Source of the DNA: Ulva prolifera
Taxonomy: Eukaryota; Chlorophyta; Ulvophyceae; Ulvales; Ulvaceae
Assembly: GCA_023078555.1 (NCBI GenBank)
Contig: CM041201.1
Coordinates: forward strand, 6,269,172 to 6,333,171
Direction: 5' to 3'
Length of the DNA: 64,000 bases
Shown piece after piece: positions 2,114 through 37,300 of this stretch. The notes under the pieces were generated by a model, which saw only the letters and a list, made by a program, of their open reading frames with translations, ran no database searches and had not been told where the DNA came from. The translations under genes were made by a program, and so were the position numbers. The stretch's first letter is position 1. The number at the start of each line of letters is the position of its first letter.

Positions 2114-5000
2114 TCAGAAGGACTGATACACAAAGCTATGAATGACAAGTGCAGTGCAATATAATATGGCAGCACATATTGTCATCAGTGTCGCATTCCT
2201 TGCCAACAACCTGTTGTTGTCATGCGGCACAAATGACAACTTAAGAATGTTTGTCAGTGTAAAAAGGCGACGGGACACTCCGACATAAAGTATTGATGCC
2301 AACAAGAAGTTCAGAAGTGGATAACCTGGAACCTGCAGACAGATTCTGTTCAAAGCAAATATCGGTGTCAGCTGTGTGGGCCGATGACTTGCACCACTCA
2401 AGACAGGTGACCTGAATGTGCCCCAGAAAGGCGTATACGTATTCAGGTGAGCGCACCAGCTCCAGGAGGTATTTCGGCTGACCGTTGGGGATGTTTGAGC
2501 GAAGCCAGATGTGGAACTGGCTGACGTAAGTTTCCAAAGTTATGCATCCTAGCCAGCTGAGCAACGCCAGGGCTCGCTGACGCAGTTGTGGTGTCACGTT
2601 GCGGACTATTACCCACAAAGAGATTGGCACCCAGCTGGTGTAAGGGTGTAAAAGGTTGTATTCGAGTTTCTCCAGCGTGTACACATACGTATACCATATA
2701 AAGAGAAGTACTAAACAGCACAGCAGTATGGCCATGCGGCACAGGTTGCTCGCGGAAGATCCAAGGCTATCGATCTTGGCCCAAGAAGATTCTATCTGTG
2801 GATGAATCCACGCAGCTACCATCCCCATGATCCATATGTACCTGTCGAGAGATGACCGAAAGAACCATTCTGCAGGCACATAAGGAAAACTGAAGGCGCG
2901 TGTACCTGAGTGCACAATTATGCACCCTGCTATTCAAGCTTGTAAGCTGGATCTAGGCTGTAGGGTTGCAGCACACTGACTGCCACGAGGCCACACCGAT
3001 GACTGCAGCAGCTTGAGTATGACTTGCGATCGGAAGCATGTCTCAAATCAGACTGCTCACACCACAGCATCTCGAAAAGTTTTGGTGTTCTGATGCAATG
3101 TGCCATTGGTCGTCGCAACTGATAGATGACCATCTGAAGCTATCAAGACCAAGGTGTAGATAGGAACTTCCAACATTGGTACAGATGCAGACACCCTAGG
3201 GTGTGCTTGATTTCCACATGGCGCTATCCTGGAACGCACCATGAAGGTTGTCTGGATTGGGATTGCGAGGGTCAGAATACTTCACAAAGAAGGTGAAAGG
3301 CCTCCATACGGCATAAAACACAGCTGGAATGTCCCAAACAACCATCACCACCACCACACAGGCCATCAGCTTGATCATCATTCCCACACGCGAGCTGTTG
3401 AGATGGCTGGCAATACCTAGTGCCGCATATACAAAAACTGTGAAGACAGTGTGCATTGGGCAGATGTAGTAAAGCATATAGTCATTGCGCAGGACAATGC
3501 AACACACAAAAACAAGAAAATTGAGCCTCCACATCATCTGAGCAAAACGGCCTATACAAAAGTCGCTTGTTCTGCAGCAACACTAATCCTTACTTTACAA
3601 ATCCAAATTTGTGCGTACATCACATATGTTTGCGCAGCTGTGGGCCATGCGCATGCCGCCGAACCCGCGCGCTGCATGTTCAAACTGCCAGGGTCCATCC
3701 CAATATCAGTTTCCACACCGTTTCTCAGTCAAAATAAAGTTTTTCACACCTATAGTAGTAATGGAAGTTTCCATATCCAGTCATCCACACATAAGCTGCA
3801 ATGAGCACACGGATGGCGTTGTACGCCTCTCGTGCCTGAAAGTAATGATACAGCAAGAACATGACCTGCATAACACCAGATTATCGCATACCACAGAGAA
3901 GAGTAAGAGCATCGATTATTATTATCAAGAACAAAGAAATACATGCTGCAGGGGAAAGTGCAAGAGCATCAAAAATTATGTGCACACTTGCATCCAGCCC
4001 TTCCATTCCTCAGTTTGGTGACGGCTAAGTGTCATCGCGCGCTTCTCTTCTCTGAAGCTACCAAAACTTACAGCAATTACAGCTGCAAATGCTGTCAGAA
4101 ACACATCGCGAGAGTAGCTCTTCTCCCCTGAGCGTAGGATCTGAGTTCGATCCGAGATTAGAAACAAAATCATCCACATTGAGAACTCTGCCATGGCATC
4201 GATCGTCTGCTGCTGCTGGACCAGAGCTACATGGTTCAAGCACACGATGCTGCACACACAATGGTATTAACAGGACAGAGTGGGTGGCACCAACATGATG
4301 CCTGACGGCATTCCAGGTCCAGATCCAGCAATATGCGGCTTTGTGCGCACTCTGTCAACGGTGATGATAGCAGTGACACAACGAATGGACTGCTGAGCGA
4401 GCGATCCTTCATGTCTGGGACGGTTGTAAGCGGATCCGACAACGCAGTTTTGACAGGTGATGTGACGGAGACAACGCTGTCCACCAAAGCTGTGCGTCCA
4501 TCATCATTACTTTGTTCACTTACATTGTCACTTTTTCTTGGTGTATCTTTACTGTATCTACAAGCAGAGTGACATCGTGTTTCAACCAAATCCAGAATGG
4601 AGGAATCCTGGCTGATCCTGCGAACTAGTCCCTAAAGCAAAACCATGGCTCATCATGCCGTACCCACGAGGGCACCGCACCCTGGGGTGCAGACAGGAGA
4701 ACGAGCAAGCGCATCGATGAGGCCCACTGTGAGCATTGATCTTGCGGGCTCAACGGAACATGCAAGCACTGTCTGATTGCCAGGAATAATGTCTGCTTTG
4801 ACCGTCAAAATGCATGATCTGCCAATTTGCACACCATATATGCGTTGCCACACAGTGATATACAGCGACCCGTGTGCATGACAATGATGCAGCCATCATA
4901 TTGCATTCTCTGCTGCCAGGTATTGGACGTACCGCCAGCGCAGGGCAGCTGAGTATGCGTAAACAAGGAATATGCTGAAGAAAGCCAAGAAGGCTGCAAT
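2114..5000 (-). CDS. RWA: RWA/Cas1p-type glycan O-acetyltransferase, multi-pass membrane protein
   Basis: Member of the Cas1p/CASD1/RWA family (10-TM acyltransferase domain), Golgi membrane proteins that feed acetyl groups to polysaccharide or glycan O-acetylation. Exons read clearly on the minus strand: 4206-3988 ([17 protein letters not shown] ... [12 protein letters not shown]), 3865-3750 ([17 protein letters not shown] ... GYGNFHYYY), 3537-3240 (MMWRLNF ... [14 protein letters not shown]), 2869-2457 ([14 protein letters not shown] ... [15 protein letters not shown]) and 2332-2114 ([17 protein letters not shown]). These match plant RWA proteins nearly segment by segment. A small exon between 3750 and 3537 is unresolved. 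Upstream, 4580-4290 encodes a Ser/Thr-rich soluble loop and about 5000-4932 a hydrophobic exon ([16 protein letters not shown]) that fits the first membrane helix. The true start is not located. The catalytic PC-esterase-like half found in animal CASD1 was not seen, so the RWA type is favoured. Confidence 0.88.
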
Positions 5001-13089: not shown

Positions 13090-16000
13090 ATGGACACGAT
13101 TCGAGCGCGTCCCGAGTGCCAGGAGCAGCACGCGTCCAGTGCTCTGTCGCACCGGGAGCGGGTATTGCAGCATTTCAGCACCGCGCCTGGTCTTGGACCT
13201 ATAGATCTAGTTCTTTGTATCAAAGAAACGAAGGGTGGATTTGGGGATCAGAAGACGGCGTCTTTCTTCCATCAAGTTGTGGGCTATGATGTGTGTAGCA
13301 CGGCGTCTTTAGCGGCATATTTTTCTGACTTGTGCAGTGACGTAGAAGAGGTGCGACGCTAGGTTTTATGCATCGAGGGGTCGCATTCTCTGCGCACGGG
13401 CAAATAGCAGCAGGCAGCTTGGACAGCTGCGGCAGGTGCCAACTTTTGAACAGATCACGTAGAATTGAAGCATTAATGCGTGTACAGAAGATTTATGGTT
13501 GTCACAGGTAGGCTTTTTCTCAGGCCTCTTTACCTCAGTGCAATGGAACATCACGCAATGCGTGTACTGTGCGTACGACGCATTCTCCCGCCTGGACGTG
13601 CGATGCCACATGGCCGTCCCTGGCGGTGTTATCGCGTACGCGGTTGATTGTAAAGGACAAAGGTACGGATCACTCACGACTGGACTGTTGGTACCGCATA
13701 TGACGTCTGCCTGCTGCCACATGCATGGTGCCGCACTGCAACCTCCACCAAAGTGAAGGGATGCCTTGCTTGTGTTGGATGTTGGAGTGGAAGTTGCAGG
13801 TACGAAATGACAGCTTCTCACTGGAAGCAAGTCTCCATCTCCGCCTTCCTGCGGTATGAGTACTACAACCCGTCTATCTTTCGTGGTTTGCCGGCTGTGG
13901 TGCAGCAACAAGCTATGAGCACTCCAGATGCCGAGGAGACAATTCTTGATAGCATATTGGATCTTTACTATGATCACGTGCCACAGCAGGTGCTAGCCAT
14001 ATCACTATCCCCTTCTCTCCTTATGCAAGGTCTCGGGAACAACAGCATACTGGATGCAGGTGATAGAGATGTTACGCCCGGGAGGACAGCGAGGCGGTGC
14101 TCATCCAGAAGACAATGATCCACTGCTGGCAGCTGTGCTCCACCACTTCAAGCGTCGGCGAGTTATGGAAGGCGCCGTAGAATTCTTTACCCAAGTAGCA
14201 TCGCTGCATGCGCCAGCAGTTGTGCAACTCTGTGCCGCGCTCGTTGCTCTTGGCCGCAATGAAGATGCCTTGCAGGTGTGTGTAGTTTGCAAGAGTAGCT
14301 GGCTGCATGAGGGGTGTACCTGCTATCGCCGCTCGTGCTCCGTCAAGTCAATGTGGCAGAGTTTGTTTCTGCTGTCTGTTAGTGACTGTTGCTTGCCATG
14401 GAATACCTGTGACCAAATTCCTGCTCGAACTTGTCATTGCGATCACTGTGCAGGTTCTGCGCAGCAATGCGTTGCGTCTACCTCATGACACCAACGTCAT
14501 CTGTGCACTTGCCGCAGCTGAGGCTGCAGGTGGTCGTGGCCAGGATGCACTGGCACTTGCCCGCCATGCTCTCTTACTCGCACCCAAGTCAACTACTGCG
14601 CTGCTGTGCATGTCCCGTGTTCAGGCCTCTTGTGGTGCTCCTGCTCTGGCTGTACTTGCCATGCACCTTGTTGTACCTCCATCAGACCGGCAGGTTTTGT
14701 TCAAGCGCATCTTCCCATGTGGACTGCCGCCATTCGCTCGCATAACGACACCATCATGCATGCCGTGGTCAGCTGACAACGAGATCCAGGCTGTACTTGA
14801 AGAAGAGGCTTGCATGCCTTGCACAGCGCATGCTGTTGCAGACTGGCAACCGTTCGTTCAGCAGCTGTGTGGCATACAAGATGGAGGAAGCTGCGAAGGT
14901 GTGCACACCAATCATGATCAACTGGACATCATTATTTGCAACCAAGGTGACTTCTACATGATGTATGTGTCTGCATGTATCTGCATTGTTTGTTGTGATC
15001 TCGTTTGAGATGGCAAAGTGTTGGTGCAGGTCGACGTGAAATGCTGCCCCCGGAGCTGTTTTCAGACCTGTCGAGCATGAGGACGTCCTTAGTCTACTTG
15101 CAACCGCATATCTCCGCGGCAAAGTATAGCATTGTTTGTTCTTGCATCCATGCCATGGGTGTTGAGAACTTTGCACTGACCCTGCAAGCGTTGGCCCGAA
15201 ACGCTGCTGACAACGGGGCACTTGCACGAGGACGACGCCGTGCAAGCAAGCGCGGATCTGTGTCAGGCCGGTCACAGCCCTCTTCTGTGATACTGGACCC
15301 TGTACCAGAACAGGATTCAAGCGTCGATGCATCTCAAGAAGTTAGCGCCGACTTGACCCCGGGCAGTACAGATGGACCCATGCACACCGCTGATGCATCC
15401 GGAACGTTGACTGGGACCCCCATGTCTGGTATTCCCAATCGCAGTAGTGACATACATGCTGCAATCCCAGGTCATGTTAAACCTGGGGAGGACAGCAACG
15501 GCCACGCATCCACAACGGCACCAGATGAAGCTGCAAGAAGACCGCCTGCAGACTTGTCACATGTTCCCACAGATCTGACGCCAAAGGAACATGGGAAGAG
15601 ACATCAAGGCAGCTCGGATGGGCATCCTGTGGGCGAGGGCTTAGACTGTGTGCGAAATTGTGTTGTTGCAGCTTTGCAGCCAAGCAAGAGCACAGCAGAA
15701 GCTGACATGAATGACGATATGCCTGCTTGCTCTTCACATGCTGGCATCACGCAAACTCATAGCTTGTTTTTTCCAGCCTGTGCGGTATGTGAAGGAGTGA
15801 AGCGTTCGGGCAGCTCACATATGCAACTGCTCCGGGGAGGTGATTCTGGCATAGTTCTCAAAGGTGATGGCACTGGATCCGTCCATGAGGATGAAGCGCC
15901 AGACTCTGTCTCCCACCTCTCATGGGATGATCCTTCGCAGCCGCCAGAAGCTCACTCCCTGCTCAAAGATGCACCTCGGTTTGCCGGCGCAAGCGCAGCT

Positions 16001-17376
16001 GCCACTACACATTCTGCAAAGAATCACTCAGGCCATGCGGAGGGTTTGAATGGTGCGGATTCGCCAGTGGGCGTGTTGCGAGAGGCTCTGCAAAAGTATG
16101 AGGATGGCTCAGTTGATGTTACAGTCGAAGGACTAGCCCGGCTTCAGTTGCGTGCGCAGGAGTATGCAACGCGAGCTGGCCCAACACCCAATGGGCGCAT
16201 GAAACGGCGCCGCAAGCTGCAAACTATGCTGGCAACCCATGGTTGTAAATCGGCCGATATCGGTAAGGGGCCCGCTACTGCTCCCGGCAAAGGTGCTGAC
16301 ACTGACCCTGTTGCTGCATCAATTGTGGATGATGCGCACGTGAGCGCTACTGCACTTCAATTATATCAGGAAAGCTCGCTCAAGAAGAGTTTGCGACAGT
16401 GCGAAGCCCAGAGAATCATGGTGCGTAGTGCATCGCCTTGGTGTGTCAGTGCTATTGCAAGGTACTGCACTGTTTGTGTGGGGTGCCACACCGGCCAGAG
16501 ACTGGGAGACCGGCATCTGTGCTGGACACCCAGGCTCACGATGCCCTCCTCGAGGTGGTTTTGTGTATGCAGGCGGCATTGTTGGACTCCACATCTGCCC
16601 CTCCAGGGGCGGTGCATCACCTGTCGCATCATTCTGCTGAAGTTATTGCTTCCTTATTTGGAGATTTGGATGCAGTTGCAATTGTAAACACCGCTGCAAT
16701 CGAGAACCCTCAAAATGGTGTGGCGCACAGTTACACAACTGCGGCAGAGGCCGTGAAAAAGGATGAATCTCAGTTCCTGAAGTTCCGCCACCGCCCACTC
16801 CACACAGCTGTGTCCAGTCGTGCTATGATAGCAAATGCTTCTTTTGGTACGTGTTCTTGATCCTCCTGGATGTGATCAGCAGGCATGGACCGTACTACAG
16901 TAGACATGGAAATCTTTGTGTATTATCATGCTCACTTTGCTGTTGCAGGGGACTGGCTGGTTTGGGGAGCTTCCTGTGAGCGCGTCGGATGCCTCAAACA
17001 TGCTGAATATGCGTACATGCGTGCATTGAGTCTGGTACACCCTCACCGCTGCCTTACAGGGCATATGGCACTTGTGCGCCTGCGGTCCGCAGACGCAGAT
17101 ATTCACACTGTCTTTGACCATTTGACAGAAGTTCTACTGCATCTGGACTATCGTAGAAGCCAGCGAGAAGCCCATATAACTTCAGACTCCTCCAGTGCTG
17201 CGAAGGAAGGCAGTGTTCCCGCGACAGTAGTTCATATGTTGGTCGTGGTCACTGCTTCATGGGGAATGACGGCAATTCAGAGCCGATTGGAGAAGGGTGC
17301 TGGACAGTATCACCCAAGCATAGAGGCTGTTGTCGAGCAGGCATTTGAATGGGGAACAGATGGTTGCGACATGTAG
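13090..17376 (+). CDS. ChAPs family protein (Bch1/Bud7-like), exomer-type cargo adaptor
   Basis: Homologue of the fungal ChAPs (Chs5p-Arf1p-binding proteins Bch1, Bud7, Chs6), TPR-containing factors that help export selected membrane cargo from the trans-Golgi. Exons in phase: 13090-13350, 13508-13662, 13800-13989, 14060-14275, 14454-14898, 15030-16420, 16462-16846 and 16949-17376, giving about 1156 residues. Exon 1 holds the family signature: PGLGPIDLVLCIKETKG then VVGYDVCSTASLAAYFSDL (compare GPPDL...YHYV-G-D-SS-TSI-AYL). Exon 2 has YDAFSRLDVRC and VPGGVIAYAVDCKG, exon 3 FLRYEYYNPSIFRGLP. Exons 4-5 are TPR-like (ALVALGRNEDALQ, GGRGQDALALARHALLLAP). The last exon has DWLVWGASCERVGCLKHAEYA. 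The 15030-16420 exon is mostly Ser/Asp/Gly-rich and probably disordered, an insertion relative to the fungal proteins. Family assignment is firm; a role in exomer-like traffic in an alga is inference. Confidence 0.82.
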
Positions 17377-17953: not shown

Positions 17954-20900
17954 TTAGATTTGATTGGACAACACAATTGATGCCAACATTGTCTGGCTCA
18001 GGGCACTGTGGAATACCTCGCCTGGTCTTTCCCAGAGTGACAGATTCCTTTGCATGTTCCTGGCACCCACTTTGTCTTGAAATGCATTGCTATTGGTCAT
18101 GGAGGATGGCTTGACCCTGTGCGTATTCGACAGTCTATCAGCCATTGAAAGCTGCTGTCGCAGCGTCAGCTGTCGTGCAAAGTCAGACGAGCAGTTGTGT
18201 CGATCCAAGACTCCTGTTTTGGTGAAACGTGAAGTCCTCGATGAGTTTCCACGTTGCCTTACGTCAATGATGTGAGATGAGTTGAGATTGATGCTGAAAT
18301 GTGATGTGGGCCTTAGCTCGGCACATCCTGAATAGCCCATGCCTTGATCATCATGACCAGCTTGCTTGACCGCATGTGGCCCAGCAGTATGAGGCCTCAT
18401 ATTGAAGTCTTGTCGTTCAATACACGTCAATTTCATTTTGGATCCTCCTGTGATAACAGCAGGTGCACTTGGCGGCCTGACGATCAGCGCTTCCATGCTT
18501 GTGGGGGACGTGGCTTGGAAGCCGACGCTCGAACTGTGTCCAGCCAAGTACGTGTGTTGTGCATTCAGTCGATGGATTGCAGCCCGCATCTTGTCAGCAG
18601 GAATGTGCCTGCCATTATATGTTCTGAATGTCTGCCGGGGTGAGATTCGTGGGCCTGCCATCAGAACCTGTGAGGAACGCCCAAGTATCACCCAAGCAGT
18701 CTCCGCGGCTTTCCAGCTTGCAGGCAGGGATAATTGGCGTGTCATCATTGCAAATAGGAGTTCCACGTGCCTGTATGGCTTCACTGGCAATTGCCGAAAC
18801 ATGTGGGTAGTTTTTATCCACGATGGCTTTCAGTTTGTCAGGTCCTCCACACCGCCAGGTCTTCAGACGGTTTGCATCGTGCTGTACCAACTGGTGGATT
18901 GCCCCAACAGCCATGGCTGATACAGATGCAGATGGGCTTGAGAGGAGGGTCACCAGCCGGGGAATTGCCCTCATGCATGCTGGGGCGCGTTTGTTCGAGT
19001 CCAGGACCACCAAGTTTGATAAAGCTGCCAAGGCCGCGACTTTCAGTCCTCTGCATGCATCCTCACTGACCGCGGGTAAAACGCAGGGACCAGTTTATTT
19101 GCACGATCAACACGATGCTTTCGCCTCCCCCCTGAATGGATGCCGCCGTGCTTTCCCCACAATTGTTTGTATTGGCATTGCATATCGATGAAAGCCTGCC
19201 ACATACCGATGCTTCATATATAAGCACGCTACCAGCCTGTTGAGGGCATTAGTTTCAGATAGTTGTCTAACATTCTGCTTGTCAGCTGTTGTTGCCACCT
19301 GCGCATGAATAATTTGTCAGGACCTTGGTCAGTGAGGATGATTCAGCTTGGTCATGATTGTATACCTGCAGCACAGCTGCGGCCGCGTGGTGTACAGCAG
19401 GAGGCTGGTGGTTGTCTTCTAACATTGTCACGCACAGCGACATGACAACAGCCATGGTAGAGACGCGTGTTCTGTACAGCTCGACAACTGCAAAGTTGCG
19501 AAGGGTCCAAAGCGCTGCTACCTGCATCAACAAGACTGAACAGATCTGATGATCACATGATCAGGCCTTCGCAATTTCATCAGCTTGAGCACCTTCTCTG
19601 CAGGCAATCCTTCATCGACCAATTTTATGAGGGACTCCAGACCGGCAATATTCCGAATTTCCTCTAACCCAGCTGGACTAAGGCTTTTCCGCCGAATCAA
19701 CTCAGCGGCATGTGCTCTTACTTTGCAAGGCACGTGTGGTGTCCATAATGTTGCCACTAAGTTCTTCACAGACTGCAGTATCACGTTTCATCAGCATGTT
19801 TTGTTTGTGTAGTTGCTCTGCCATACAATGGGCCGATATGTGTAAATTGACACACGTTTCATCAGCATGAGGATGCCAGCATTGCATTGCATGTAGGGGC
19901 TGCGACATGCTGAAGCAAGGTGTTGACATGGCATACCTGCTCCTGTACTACACCATAGTCCATGCCAATGGCCTTATTGCGATCTTCGTTTGACAGCTTT
20001 GAAAGCTGTCTGCTAACTGATATCACTTCCTGCGCTAGAGCATGTTCTCCTTTACAAATCTCAACGATGGCAGAGCCTGACAGACTGAAAAGGTAGTTAA
20101 ATGACAACCCCTCGCTGGGGCTGCGAGTTGCTGTGCCAGCACACGCAGCAGCTGTCTCTTTCAAATGGCGAGCTTGAAGTCGCCGCCATATGCATCCCAC
20201 GCCACGAGCTTCCAGAAGCAGATACAGAATTTCTTGCTCCACGGCGGCATAGAACCGGCTAATCTGCAACTTCTGCTCTCACGCTCACGATACCGAATCG
20301 GCACAGAGAAGGTATGTAATGCAATGTGTAATATATAGTGTGTCATTCAGATAGCATTCATCATGCAGACAGTGTAAAATATAGTGTAGCCTAGGATAGC
20401 TGTATACATCATACCTGGGGCTGGTCCATGCCAATCATGCCCAGACAGCGTTCTGTCAAGAGCACCAATTCAATTATACTTTCACAACCGTACGTGACAT
20501 ACAATGGTCGTACAAAACTGCCCAGTCCTGCAGCTTCCAGCAGCCCACCCATGGGCAGCTGCATCAAATCCGCGTCATGCTCTATTCCCAAAAAACGAGC
20601 CATGCATGTTTCGAAGACTTCCATGTGACCAAGGTTGTTGTAGAAAACCTGCAGTCAAGTCAACCTAAGAAACCGTGCAGAACCATCTCGACGTCTGTCT
20701 TCATTCCAGGGCTGCAATCATCAAGGCAATCAACAAGTGAACGTTTTCACATACCAGTGGCTTGGAAACAAATGCTTTCCTCAGCTCTAGAGGGTAAAGT
20801 TGCTGAATTCTTTGCGGGGTCGGCGGATTGCTTTGACCCGGGCAGACACAAACGATCCGCTGACTTGGGATTATACCAGCTGCTGCCTTCATCTCCAAAA

Positions 20901-21571
20901 ACGACCTGCCATGTTGTTCTTCAAGACTTTGAAAGTACGAGTCTGTCAAGCAGGCAATGAAGTGTGTGCAGTCCTATACACATCAGTCAGGCTCATGCAT
21001 ATGTTCTCACAAGTGATGTCTGCGATGAGGTCTTGCTTACCTTCATTCTGTTATCAAAATCAACATAGTTCAGCTTTCCATCCTCAGGTTCAAGCATGAC
21101 ACCTGTGACACCATACTCATCGATGAGCTGAGATTTGATGTAACCTGCAATCTGATGACTGGTCTTGTCTCCAGGAACGTAGCTGAGGTATGCTCGTGCT
21201 TGTCTGACTACCATGGATCGCCTGGCAGTTGCACGTGCATCCCCTGCATGCAGCTGTATGCTTGAACAGTCTCCACGGTGCCGTGCCTGCTGATTACCAC
21301 AGAGGGCATCAGAGGCGGACTTGCGTATGAAGGCAGAAATTATGGTAAGAACTGACATACCTACATGTTCCCTGTTCTCGAAGTCCTTGCGGGCTTCACC
21401 CTCCCGCATTTCCTCGGCCACATACTGTGGAAGCACAACGGTGTAGTGGGCGCACTCTTGTACATATGCCTCAAGCCTCGGCACTTGAAACACCAACTCA
21501 TACGGTCCAGATTCAGGTCCGCGGCCATAGTGCCCGTCAGGCCCAGGCGGAAGAGACATAACACGGTACAT
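17954..21571 (-). CDS. TIR-SAM-armadillo protein (SARM1 domain set in reverse order)
   Basis: Predicted protein of about 925 residues. Exons on the minus strand: 21571-21041, 20973-20755, 20648-20415, 20272-19937, 19772-19557, 19521-19366, 19298-19207, 19050-about 18771, and 18667-17954. Residues about 125-250 form a TIR domain: the first strand motif RAYLSYVPGDKTSHQIAGYI, then across the first intron DCTHFIACLTDSYFQS and FLEMKAAAGI...RIVCVCP. The Glu of FLEMKAA sits where SARM1-type TIR domains carry their NADase glutamate. The next exon encodes a SAM-like fold (LLEAAGLGSFVRPLYV ... LTERCLGMIGMDQPQ), followed by a helical linker. Armadillo repeats then run from about residue 440 (VKNLVATLWTPHVPCKVRA, AALWTLRNFAVVEL, VAALAALSNLVVLDSNKRA). 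The C-terminal 240 residues look disordered. Phases agree at nearly every junction; the 18771 donor would be GC. NAD cleavage is inferred from the domain, not shown. The start ATG at 21571 is the first in the open frame. Confidence 0.68.
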
Positions 21572-25181: not shown

Positions 25182-27561
25182 ATGGAACCCTACCGTCGCG
25201 ATGTCCCCGAACTGAGCCAACCAATCGATCTGGTCGTAGAGGGCGCGATTCCAGCATCAGTGCGAGGTTGGTACTTCCGAAATGGCCCAGGAAAGTTCAG
25301 TGTTGGCGGTACCAGGGTTGCACATCCATTTGATGGTGATGGCGCGATTTGCAAGATTCACTTGACTGCACCCAAAAGTGCAACGTTCATGAATCAGTAT
25401 GTCAAGACAGAAGAGTATGCACCTGCCCGTGAATTCCACAATTTAGCAAGGTCATTGTTCTTGTGGGATTTCCAAACCACCGCACCTGAACGGCATTTCG
25501 GTGCTCCAGGCTTATTGCTGAAACAGCTGCCTCTCGTCAGATGGCGCGTGGATCATTTGGCACCAACATCGAAGGCGGTATTCTCGCAAATGTATTGGAT
25601 GTGCTGCCGAAGAATGCGGCGAACATATCCGTTTTGTGGCTGTCTGGGCGCTTATTTGCTCTCTTTGAGGGTGGTCAGCCATATGAGCTTGATCCGCACA
25701 CATTGCAGACTATGAACTATTCAACCCTGGATGGGGTGCTTAAGATTGGCGCACCTTTTTCTGTGAGCGGGCCGATCAGGGGTTTGGCAGAGCGAGCTTT
25801 AAGCAGTCTTCGGTTTTTGCGACAAAGACAGCCATGCAGTGTGCGGCTGGGAGGAGATGCTTTTGCTTCACATTATAAACGTGATTCAGCAAGACAGCGT
25901 GTCATTTGTATGTCCTACCAGGTTGCAGTATGCTTTCCTTCTTACCTGTGTGTGTACTTGAGCTGAATGTATTAGTTTTGCCTGGTCAGGCGGGGCTGTT
26001 GTTTATGCAGCAATGTGTGCGTAGGTAGAAACTTCTGTGGCTTGTGTTGGAGGCCTTCACACTGATATGCAATTCTACGAGTTCGACGACACCAGCAGGT
26101 TGATGAAGCTACTCACAGTGAAGAACGTCCGGTTCCCTGGTTATGCTTTTGTCCATGACTTTGCCATCACTGAAGATTATATTGTGGTCATGCTCAATCC
26201 ACTCAAATTACATCTCGGGAACTATGTGCTTGGCAAGCTCAGTCCCATCCACAGCTTGGAGTATGATGCAACGAAGAGGATGCAGGTATGGGGCAGTTTG
26301 CTACTTTCTTTCCCACTGCGAAAATGCACTCTGCATGAGAATTGGCAGCAGCATGACAGTCTTCAGTCCAATAGTGTACACTGCCAGGTATACGTCATTC
26401 CCCGACGATTGGAGGCTACAGTAGACAGTGCAGCTCATATTGCTGAAGCTATATTTGGTTGGCCTTGTGAAGCGGAGCAGCCAGGCAGTATGTGTCATCT
26501 CGTTATCCTGAGAATTCCTGGTTCCTTCTTCAGTCTTGTAATTACCAGCTTTTCCCACCAGTTTCCTCTATGCTGCAGGTGTTGTTCCTAACACTGGAGT
26601 ACAGGTTTTTTCGCTGCGCCCGCATTTTGCACAGCATATCGCTAATGCATGGACTACAGACTGCACAGACGGCAAAACCCTACATATCCAATATGCTGGT
26701 TATCCTGAGATGCCAGACTTCATGTCTTGGTCTGGGCCTGGACAGCGCTTTGAAAACATTGATCCAGACAACCAGCCTCCTTCACGACTGATGCATGCTG
26801 TTTTCCTTCTGACAGAACATCAGCTATGTGGACAGGCAGCACACAAGCCAAGACATGCTGGATCTAGCTGGACCACGTCTTTGGCATTCAACATGCGAGA
26901 GACGATGAATGTGAAACAAGGAGTTTGCGACATGGGCATGCAGCTGCAAAGCAAAACTGAAACACTGAATGACCTCGCAAGACTAGATATCGATCCAGGA
27001 ACACTCAACGAGCTGCCTCCCAGTTTCTTGTTTTCACATGCCGGAATGACTCGGGCAGTTTGCAGCCGTGTGCTAGAATTTCCTCAAGTAAATCCACTGT
27101 TTTGTGGCAAAGAATCTCGGTATATTTTTGGTGCATCGTCATTGCATACATTCAAGAATCGTCCGCAACAGGCCATTGGTGTCTATGATTGCTTGACTGG
27201 CCGGTGCAATGTCTGGACACGTGGCTGGAAGTACTATGTGGGTGAGCCCGAGATGGTGCCTTCGCGTCCGCAAGATCGACGAGATAGCACACCATTGGAA
27301 TTGGATGGTGCGTACATATGTGTTGACTGTGTTTCTGGTTCTTTCTTGTAGGGGACAATGCCAATCGTGAGTTTGTATGCACATGCAGGTTGGATCCTAA
27401 GCATCTGTTATGACGCAGAGCGCCATGTCAGTGAACTAATCATTCTTGATGCAGCAAATATCACCCAAGGACCTGTCGCTACGATTACGTTGCCCTTTGT
27501 GATACCGCATGGGCTGCATGGTACCTTTGTTCATGAACAGCAAATTCGCATGCATGTGTAA
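25182..27561 (+). CDS. carotenoid cleavage oxygenase (RPE65/CCD family)
   Basis: Non-haem iron dioxygenase that splits carotenoid or apocarotenoid double bonds; a seven-bladed propeller with four His ligands. Exons 25182-25450, 25510-25921 and 26025-26285 join in phase; 26388-26457 and later exons (about 26600-26780, 26960-27310, 27390-27561) are less exact. Family landmarks in order: GAIPASVRGWYFRNGPGKF and HPFDGDGA near the N-terminus, GSFGTNIEGGILANVLD, GDAFASHYKRD, FPGYAFVHDFAITEDYIVV (His ligand), HFAQHIANAWTTD (His ligand), YIFGASSLHTF and finally PFVIPHGLHGTFVHEQ (His ligand). The substrate class (beta-carotene, apocarotenoid, strigolactone-type CCD7/8) cannot be told from the sequence. 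No plastid transit peptide is obvious before GAIPASVRG; the start ATG at 25182 leaves only about 20 residues, so either the enzyme is cytosolic or an upstream exon is missing. Confidence 0.9.
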
Positions 27562-34378: not shown

Positions 34379-37300
34379 ATGATTTCGACATTACAGGAGA
34401 CTCTGATATCACTCGATATCACACAACCAGCCGATATGAGTGCTGGCGCGTACGGAAAGCTGGCATTTCGTGTAGTTGTGTTGATGCAGCTAGCGTACGA
34501 AGCACAGTTGCTTGAAGTAGAAGACATGGAGATACAGATTGACCGGGCCAGAAACGTGGAAAAGGTAAATGTCTTCTGCCAGTTTTGACCAGTCACAAAA
34601 ATGCCGAAGCACCAACAAAAGCCTCACACCCCCCGCCCCACCGCCCAAATGATCATGGCATACCCACATTTGCTTGTTGTATCACAGAACTACCATGTGG
34701 CACTGGAACAGTTAGAGAAGTTGCAGCAGGAGAGAAGCCTTCACATGGAGACACCAGCAGGAGAGTTGCGGGAGCAAGTCAACAGTCTATCCAACACTGT
34801 CGAGCTTCTGACATCACTCAACAAAGTTCTAGAAGAGAAATCAGCTGATGCTAGTCAGACAATAAAGCAGCTTGAAGGAGACAAAACGAAGTTGAAGTAT
34901 GCATACAAATGGCGTCTCTGTGCATGTACCTCGGTCTGTGCGGCTAGGCAATCTGTGCTGTGTTGCAGAACTAAGCTACAAGAGCAAGATACAACCATAC
35001 AGGATCACACTCAGGAGATGTTCATGCTTCAGAAGCAACTGTCCGACCTGCGAACTGAATTGTCTCGACTGCAGGCTGTACAACCAGCTGCAAGCGTCGG
35101 TGCCGACAAAGCTGTTTCACAGCAAGGCTTTCTGTCTCAAATGGACGATCTCGAAAGTGCATATCAAAAACAACTGGCAGATCTCGAGTCACAGCTGGAC
35201 GGTGTCAAGGCAGAGAACCTCATTTTGTGCATGGAACTGCAAGATGTAGGCAAAGAAGCTCAAAAGGAATCCCAGATGGTATACTCTGACACTGCATTTG
35301 CACACTCTAGCACAACCTTGAAAGACTGCAAGCTGCGCAGCTGCTGTGAGTTTTGATGCTCCATGCACCACGCTGACTGCATCGTCCCATGGCTGATGCT
35401 AATTGCATCACATAATTCATTGACACAGCAAATCGTGGAGTTGCTTGCAGAAGTCACAGCTCCAGGATGACCTTTATTTAGCAGAACAGACGGCGGCTCA
35501 CCTCAAAGCCGAAGAAGCCAGCCTTCGGGATGAGCTCAGTGCTCAGATGATGCTGCTCAACGAATTTGAACAGCGCTTCGAAAAACAAGTGGAAGAATCC
35601 CAGAAGCAAGTGGACGCCTTGCGATTGCAGTTGGCACAGTCACGGACAGGGAATGGGCTTTTGGTCGGCAGCAACAGCGTTGACAACGACAACAGCATTG
35701 ATGAACAGCTTGCTGAGGCTGATAAAACAGTGAAAATTTTGGCAGCTGAAAAAATACAGCTGCTGGAGGCATACGAGGCGCTGGAGTTGGATACTGGACG
35801 GCTCATTGATGATGCTGTCAAGGATCATAGAGATCAAGTAAATGCTTTGAAACAGCAAATCCAGGTGTGGCAACGAGATCCGTAACTGGCAAGTTTGAGA
35901 ATCACAGTAAGTACTAGATTCAAGCACATCGTATGATTGTGAATCGTCGCGCATACATACAGTTCATGAACATATGGCATGTGTTGCATGGTCGCAAAAT
36001 TTGTCACATTTCAGCTTTCCCTTTGCAAGTTAAACAAAGAATGAGTCTCAGCTTTTTGGACTCTCAGTGAGCAGGCGTGTATATGTACCAGCAATGATTT
36101 CAGGCAATGATGTAGCTGTACTGCATGCCATCTTGAAATGGATCGGTCAGATGCACCTTTTACAGGCCAAAGATGATGAGTCGGCTATAATGACCAAGGA
36201 ACATGAAGACATGAAAATGTGCATATGTGACCTTGAGGCAGAATTTTCGTCTGCACAAAAAGACTTGAAAGAGGTAGTCAGCGGGGACCTGCAGCTCGCC
36301 AACGCTTTGGCTGAAATTCGTCATCTGCGCGCCCGGCTGAAATCCGTGCAGGCAGAAAAGCTACAAGTATCGGCAGAGGTATTTCATGCGTGTGTCAAAA
36401 ATTTGCATGTTCAACACATCAGCGGCATGTCAACTACGTGCACATTGTAAGCAATGCCAATTTTGTGATGAAACTCTGTCATGCAGAGGAATGAATTGGC
36501 TGACACGGCTGAATTTTATTGTGAAGAGATCAAGCAGCTCAGAAGCAAGTACGACCCCGGAAGCATAACACAATTCACCGATTGGCATCAACAGCGAAAA
36601 TCCAAGCTGGCACAGCTTGAGGCACTCAACGCAGAGCTCGAGCGCATGGTGGCAAATTTGGAAGAAGATCGCAGGCGTACAGCATACAAGCTGCAGTCCA
36701 CAGATGCCAGCAGGTGTGCGAAAAAGGACACATGCAGGTATGTAAGTACCCCTGGATGTCATTGGGTACTCAACCGACCTAACGCTGAGGGAGACATATT
36801 GCAGGGCTCTCAGCAGTGGAGAAGTACGGCAGCAGGCTGGTTCAACTGGATTTCAAGTAGAAGACAGTGGGAAGCCGACATCTATAAGCGATTTGGTTGT
36901 ACATCACACTGCACAGGGTGTGTCTCTTGCGATGCATTTCAGCCTCTTGATTCAGATTACTCTTGCCTTGCCCTGCAATGACGCTGTGAACAGCTGTGCT
37001 GACCTTGTTGGTCTTCGACTGTCATCGCAACCCGGGTACTCCAGTGAAAGGGCTTTTGTATTAATTTGACGAGCGCCGGGTGTGCAGCAACCCTGCGACC
37101 TGCATCAGTTGCGGCAGACACACAGTCACAGAAGCAGCTGAAAGAGTCAGTGCAACATGTTGGAAAATTCTTCTCGGCAGGTTTTCAGCAAGCTGCAAAT
37201 GATCACAAAACTTCAACCAAATCTGTGCGTCATAATTCATGTATTTGAAGCCGCACGGTTATTCATGACGTGGCTCTGCACACAGTACCCAAACGATCCC

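Follow-up and report, generated by a model that had tools for sequence, protein, structure and literature searches.

A single-copy Ulva gene with predicted TIR, tandem SAM and ARM domains in the reverse of the SARM1 order

Gene structure and conservation

The window analyzed here is a 64,000-nucleotide stretch of Ulva prolifera contig CM041201.1. On its minus strand lies a gene that we modeled as 11 exons running from 21571 to 17543 and encoding an 891-residue protein, which gains 12 residues if, as the acceptor list allows, the second exon starts at 21243 instead of 21207. The exons are given below from the N-terminus to the C-terminus, together with their correspondence to P0001 (jgi/Ulvmu1/5939), a protein of Ulva mutabilis.

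21361..21571, minus strand: putative first exon with its ATG at 21571; open frame and GT donor (gtatgt)
21041..21205, minus strand: first half of the probable TIR domain (RQARAYLSYVPGDK...NRMK); raises the TIR profile score when joined; start uncertain, e.g. 21207 or 21243
20755..20973, minus strand: second half of the probable TIR domain, with FLEMKAAA; 79% identical in U. mutabilis
20415..20648, minus strand: helix presumed to close the TIR domain (about 20648-20580), then SAM1 (from about 20558); 76% identity with U. mutabilis; SAM_TNK match on the U. mutabilis piece
19937..20272, minus strand: last SAM1 helix and probable second SAM (model residues 9-94, about 20248-19991)
19593..19772, minus strand: first of four ARM exons; 87% identity with U. 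mutabilis; ARM_ARMC5 match beginning at residue 481 of the 727-residue model
19366..19521, minus strand: second of four ARM exons; 88% identity with U. mutabilis
19207..19298, minus strand: third of four ARM exons; junctions as in P0001; Pfam Arm
18771..19050, minus strand: last of four ARM exons, followed by the GC-AG donor; 87% identity with U. mutabilis
18017..18667, minus strand: C-terminal tail without an assigned domain; colinear with that of P0001
17543..17692, minus strand: last coding exon with the stop codon; start may shift by a few codons; matches the P0001 end

A first-pass annotation of this DNA had read TIR, SAM and armadillo (ARM) segments from consecutive in-frame exons of the minus strand. 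All the segments that it quoted do lie on that strand, in order and with introns that keep the frame, and the exon model and P0001 confirmed this reading with corrections. One correction concerns the end of the gene, which had been placed at 17954. Nine of the ten introns are GT-AG, but the remaining one, after EAIQ, is a GC-AG intron (18770-18668, minus strand) through which the gene continues into a 291-codon frame and on to 17543. The intron is backed by P0001, which also matches both the 291-codon frame and the last exon. Pfam assigned no domain to the P0001 tail.

P0001 is the closest protein among the matches listed; its alignment spans 82% of the query at 75% identity. It is one gene model that holds the second half of the TIR together with SAM, ARM and tail, and our spliced protein tracks it from the start of the second TIR exon through to the stop codon. 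The differences in length are small: at the SAM1/SAM2 exon boundary P0001 has three residues fewer, and at the last junction four more. All of the gene that begins with the second TIR exon is thus conserved in a second Ulva species, and for this part the U. mutabilis model upholds the earlier claim of one gene rather than two. The two exons further upstream (21205-21041, the first TIR half, and 21571-21361) are absent from the U. mutabilis gene model and draw their support from the U. prolifera genome alone. Since P0001 starts with MQDCTHF, at the beginning of the second TIR exon, it neither confirms nor denies the exon for the first TIR half. Its 'MQ' could be the end of an exon or of an intron read as coding, and its start may be an annotation cut.

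The putative first exon adds an N-terminal extension without a recognized domain. A faint resemblance of VQECAHYTVVLPQYV (21463-21356, minus strand) to MKDCTHFIACLTDSYF of the TIR domain was considered and rejected: 77 of 2000 shuffles equaled it, and the TIR profile described below, against which the first exon has an hhalign score of only 11.0, says that it is not TIR.

We searched the genome (88.9 Mb, 44 contigs) with the protein for further copies. All eight matches were the gene's own exons, and in this genome the TIR-SAM-SAM-ARM gene is single-copy. Searched against 5.8 billion proteins, the sequence had just two proteins among the matches listed: P0001 and P0002, the latter of the ARM type. 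P0002 is annotated with Arm and MYND domains, and its match, which covers 15-20% of the query, is taken to be ARM. ARM aside, there were no relatives outside Ulva among the matches listed in these protein searches, which rely on shared five-letter words and can therefore miss distant relatives; the viral contigs searched held no relatives either. That the matches listed comprise only P0001 and P0002 is consistent with the independent assembly of the protein that the first-pass annotation had proposed.

ARM and SAM regions

The ARM repeats are clear. Pfam Arm (PF00514) matched the 727-residue protein with 34.3 bits (E 2.3e-8; cut-off 20.6) and P0001 with 34 bits (E 2.7e-8). The best PDB match for the region was Vac8 (E 6.3e-12), and the best 60 of 65 PDB sequence matches further included designed ARM proteins, ODAD2, catenins and others, with no SARM1 chain among them. 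Of the profile matches expected from the first-pass reading, the Arm match is the one above its cut-off; those for SAM_TNK and TIR_2 fall below theirs.

The identity of the first SAM is well supported. The isolated U. mutabilis piece matched SAM_TNK with 24.1 bits (E 3.8e-5), against a cut-off of 25, and the SAM match in whole P0001 had an E-value of 0.0019; the window's own SAM1 piece gave no SAM profile match in Pfam. For the segment that follows SAM1, no SAM match was obtained by sequence. Its predicted fold (pLDDT 80) was compared with 54 realigned chains, and the best seven were all SAM domains, including that of SARM1 (6o0s_A). On the strength of this predicted fold, the segment is probably a second SAM. 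Thus, the SAM segment reported in the first pass stands but is probably not the only one, and this apparent tandem arrangement brings the protein closer to SARM1 than had been thought.

Identity of the N-terminal domain

The isolated N-terminal domain matched Pfam TIR_2 with 17.1 bits (E 0.008), below the 28-bit cut-off, over profile positions 3-109 of 122. TIR_2 was the sole Pfam family reported for this domain at E up to 10. Its E-value was 0.13 in the 727-residue protein, also below the cut-off, and 0.0044 for a hybrid domain carrying the U. mutabilis second TIR half. Control constructs revealed that such E-values can occur by chance, and therefore we built a separate profile from 29 TIRs, namely that of SARM1 and 28 from six bacterial genomes picked for SARM1-like matches.

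In a profile-profile comparison (hhalign), the joined domain scored 30.5 (probability 57.7%) over 106 columns and in the expected register. The highest score among 1000 column-permuted controls, in which composition is kept and order lost, was 23.3. Among 286 control pieces from bacteria it was 26.4; these were single sequences, cut on both strands of loci L010-L045 out of frames open for 200 codons or more, so that some of them are not real genes. Four control pieces exceeded 24: three belong to a TIR-like protein of L045, and the one from L044 looks amidase-like. Taken singly, the two halves scored 17.2 (first) and 18.0 (second), and the window sequence without U. mutabilis reached 29.6 over 65 columns. 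A plain hmmsearch with the 29-member profile gave a weak match at rank 9 of 20,001, and PDB sequence searches with the domain returned no TIR. Based on these sequence comparisons, we consider the N-terminal domain a probable, though not proven, TIR.

The catalytic position

The Glu of FLEMKAA had been put forward as the catalytic residue. The column of the catalytic residue (E642) holds Glu in all 29 reference TIRs, which come from six selected bacterial genomes plus SARM1 and so are not representative of every TIR. In the Ulva domain, this column is occupied by Lys in 10 of the 12 rows of our joint MAFFT alignments and likewise with hhalign, hmmsearch and MAFFT addition. The same alignments place the Phe of FLEMK opposite the aromatic residue of WxxxE. 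Glu falls in the catalytic column in the other two rows, both produced by one fast MAFFT mode. The Glu of FLEMKAA, identical along with the rest of FLEMKAAA in both Ulva species, more likely sits two residues off the catalytic site, contrary to the original proposal. Moreover, the two arginines that follow FISY in SARM1 correspond to Val and Pro in the Ulva domain. With Lys found mostly in the aligned catalytic column, NAD cleavage by the Ulva TIR appears doubtful. The domain is probably devoid of the usual catalytic residue and may act as a clustering switch, not as an NAD-cutting enzyme.

Comparison with known TIR and ARM proteins

The animal NAD+ hydrolase SARM1/TIR-1 (ARM-SAM-SAM-TIR) resembles the Ulva protein in having TIR, SAM and ARM in one chain, and its tandem SAM probably has a counterpart in Ulva. 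The predicted Ulva order, TIR-SAM-SAM-ARM, is the reverse, with TIR at the N-terminus and ARM at the C-terminus, which supports the reversed arrangement noticed in the first pass. The Ulva protein also differs from SARM1 in its long extra tail, in the Lys that most alignments place in the catalytic Glu column, and in that no SARM1 chain occurs among its listed PDB sequence matches. In view of its domain order, which sets it outside SARM1, we would class the protein as a new form within the TIR-SAM-ARM proteins. Its ARM region matches in sequence those of Vac8, ODAD2 (ARMC4) and beta-catenin. These ARM proteins are not known to carry TIR or SAM domains.

SARM1-like TIRs have been reported in protists, with green algae named among the holders (PMC13142454), and choanoflagellate TIR proteins occur with Arm or Ank (PMC6040629). 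As far as the accessible text of these two reports goes, such proteins share with the Ulva protein the presence of TIR and repeat domains outside animals, and neither report describes a TIR-SAM-SAM-ARM order or Ulva. Seven green-algal TIRs fall in a mixed group, according to PMC7075850. In plants and algae, TIR-only and TIR-NBS-LRR proteins (PMC7282519, PMC9806590) have an N-terminal TIR like the Ulva protein; in contrast to TIR-NBS-LRR proteins, the latter has ARM and SAM instead of a nucleotide-binding switch and LRR. In the accessible part of the open PMC literature, we found no paper on a TIR-SAM-ARM order and, by title and the opening of the abstract, none on an Ulva TIR. The papers listed there that pair TIR with ARM or SAM deal mostly, to judge by their titles, with SARM1 or NAD.

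Possible mode of action

The reading that we favor, with a probability of about one half, is that the product of this single-copy Ulva gene is a long-tailed TIR-SAM-SAM-ARM protein, working as an ARM-restrained TIR scaffold rather than as an NADase. In SARM1, the TIRs are crowded by SAM rings and kept docked at a distance from one another by ARM, and they become free once ARM is lost (PMC7688312). By analogy, the Ulva protein could be an oligomer in which C-terminal ARMs restrain N-terminal TIRs. The tandem SAMs would gather several copies into a ring or filament, and the ARM repeats would either keep the TIRs apart or bind an upstream signal or partner. Upon release from ARM, the TIRs would cluster. 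Clustered TIRs would then be more likely to recruit other proteins, signaling as a scaffold, than to cleave NAD, a ranking that we base on the alignments of both Ulva species, where Lys mostly takes the catalytic column. The assembly logic would be like that of SARM1, yet the protein would not be a SARM1 family member.

The same parts could also make a working TIR NADase gated by ARM, if the Glu of FLEMKAA were catalytic after a two-residue slip; the SAMs would cluster the TIRs, and an ARM ligand would trigger NAD cutting in cell death or immunity. The component set is that of SARM1, probably down to the tandem SAMs, FLEMKAAA is unchanged between the two Ulva species, and setting Glu on Glu by eye, an arrangement that two of the 12 MAFFT rows reproduce, brings the hydrophobic residue at +1 and the Ala at +4 into agreement. 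We nevertheless regard this reading as possible at best and rather doubtful, given the Lys in ten of the 12 rows and with MAFFT addition, hhalign and hmmsearch, the Val and Pro in place of the SARM1 arginines, and the ARM region with no SARM1 chain among the best 60 of its 65 PDB matches. Doubtful, too, is a bolder version, a seaweed-built mirror image of SARM1 that would have arisen independently. In it, a sensor formed by the C-terminal ARM would hold apart the N-terminal TIRs of a ring built by the tandem SAMs until a metabolite or a stress signal set them free, and the TIRs would then cut NAD or make a nucleotide signal through an altered active site, having Lys in the Glu column and Glu two residues earlier.

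The N-terminal part itself can be read differently. Translation from the second TIR exon, where P0001 begins with MQDCTHF, would yield a SAM-SAM-ARM protein with half a TIR and no complete TIR fold, that is, an ARM adaptor of the Vac8/ODAD2 type; ARM is indeed the best recognized part, and both proteins are among its PDB matches. However, the upstream exon is open, splices in frame and lifts the TIR profile score from 18.0 to 30.5, and the P0001 start may reflect an annotation cut, so we consider this reading unlikely. Least probable in our view is that the domain has some other Rossmann-like or flavodoxin-like fold and resembles TIR by chance. The Pfam score below the cut-off, the PDB sequence searches without a TIR and the weak hmmsearch with our own profile would fit such a fold, but TIR_2 is the sole Pfam family at E up to 10, and none of the 1000 permuted or 286 open-frame controls reaches the score of the 106-column profile alignment.

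If the order is confirmed, the logic of SARM1 (effector TIR, SAM oligomerizer and ARM regulator) can be built in reverse, and the Ulva protein offers a test of whether autoinhibition by ARM depends on the order of the domains along the chain. A catalytic column with Lys would point to a TIR assembly that is naturally non-enzymatic or else to another kind of active site, and either would be informative. Ulva is multicellular and U. mutabilis is transformable, which makes the idea testable.

Genomic neighborhood

Downstream of the TIR gene and on the opposite strand, a 562-codon open frame (14999-16687, plus strand) lacks Pfam matches with E-values of 0.01 or lower and is possibly a neighboring gene running toward the TIR gene. 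The window also contains a Cas1p-type acyltransferase with 10 transmembrane segments (2241-2933, minus strand; E 8e-25), perhaps a polysaccharide O-acetyltransferase, and a frame at 34589-35356 (plus strand) with a coiled-coil match below the cut-off (E 0.006) to CCDC113/CCDC96, a ciliary family. Upstream of the TIR gene, on the opposite strand, lie exons of a carotenoid cleavage oxygenase of the RPE65 family (25490-27348, plus strand; E 8.7e-16 and 3.2e-15).
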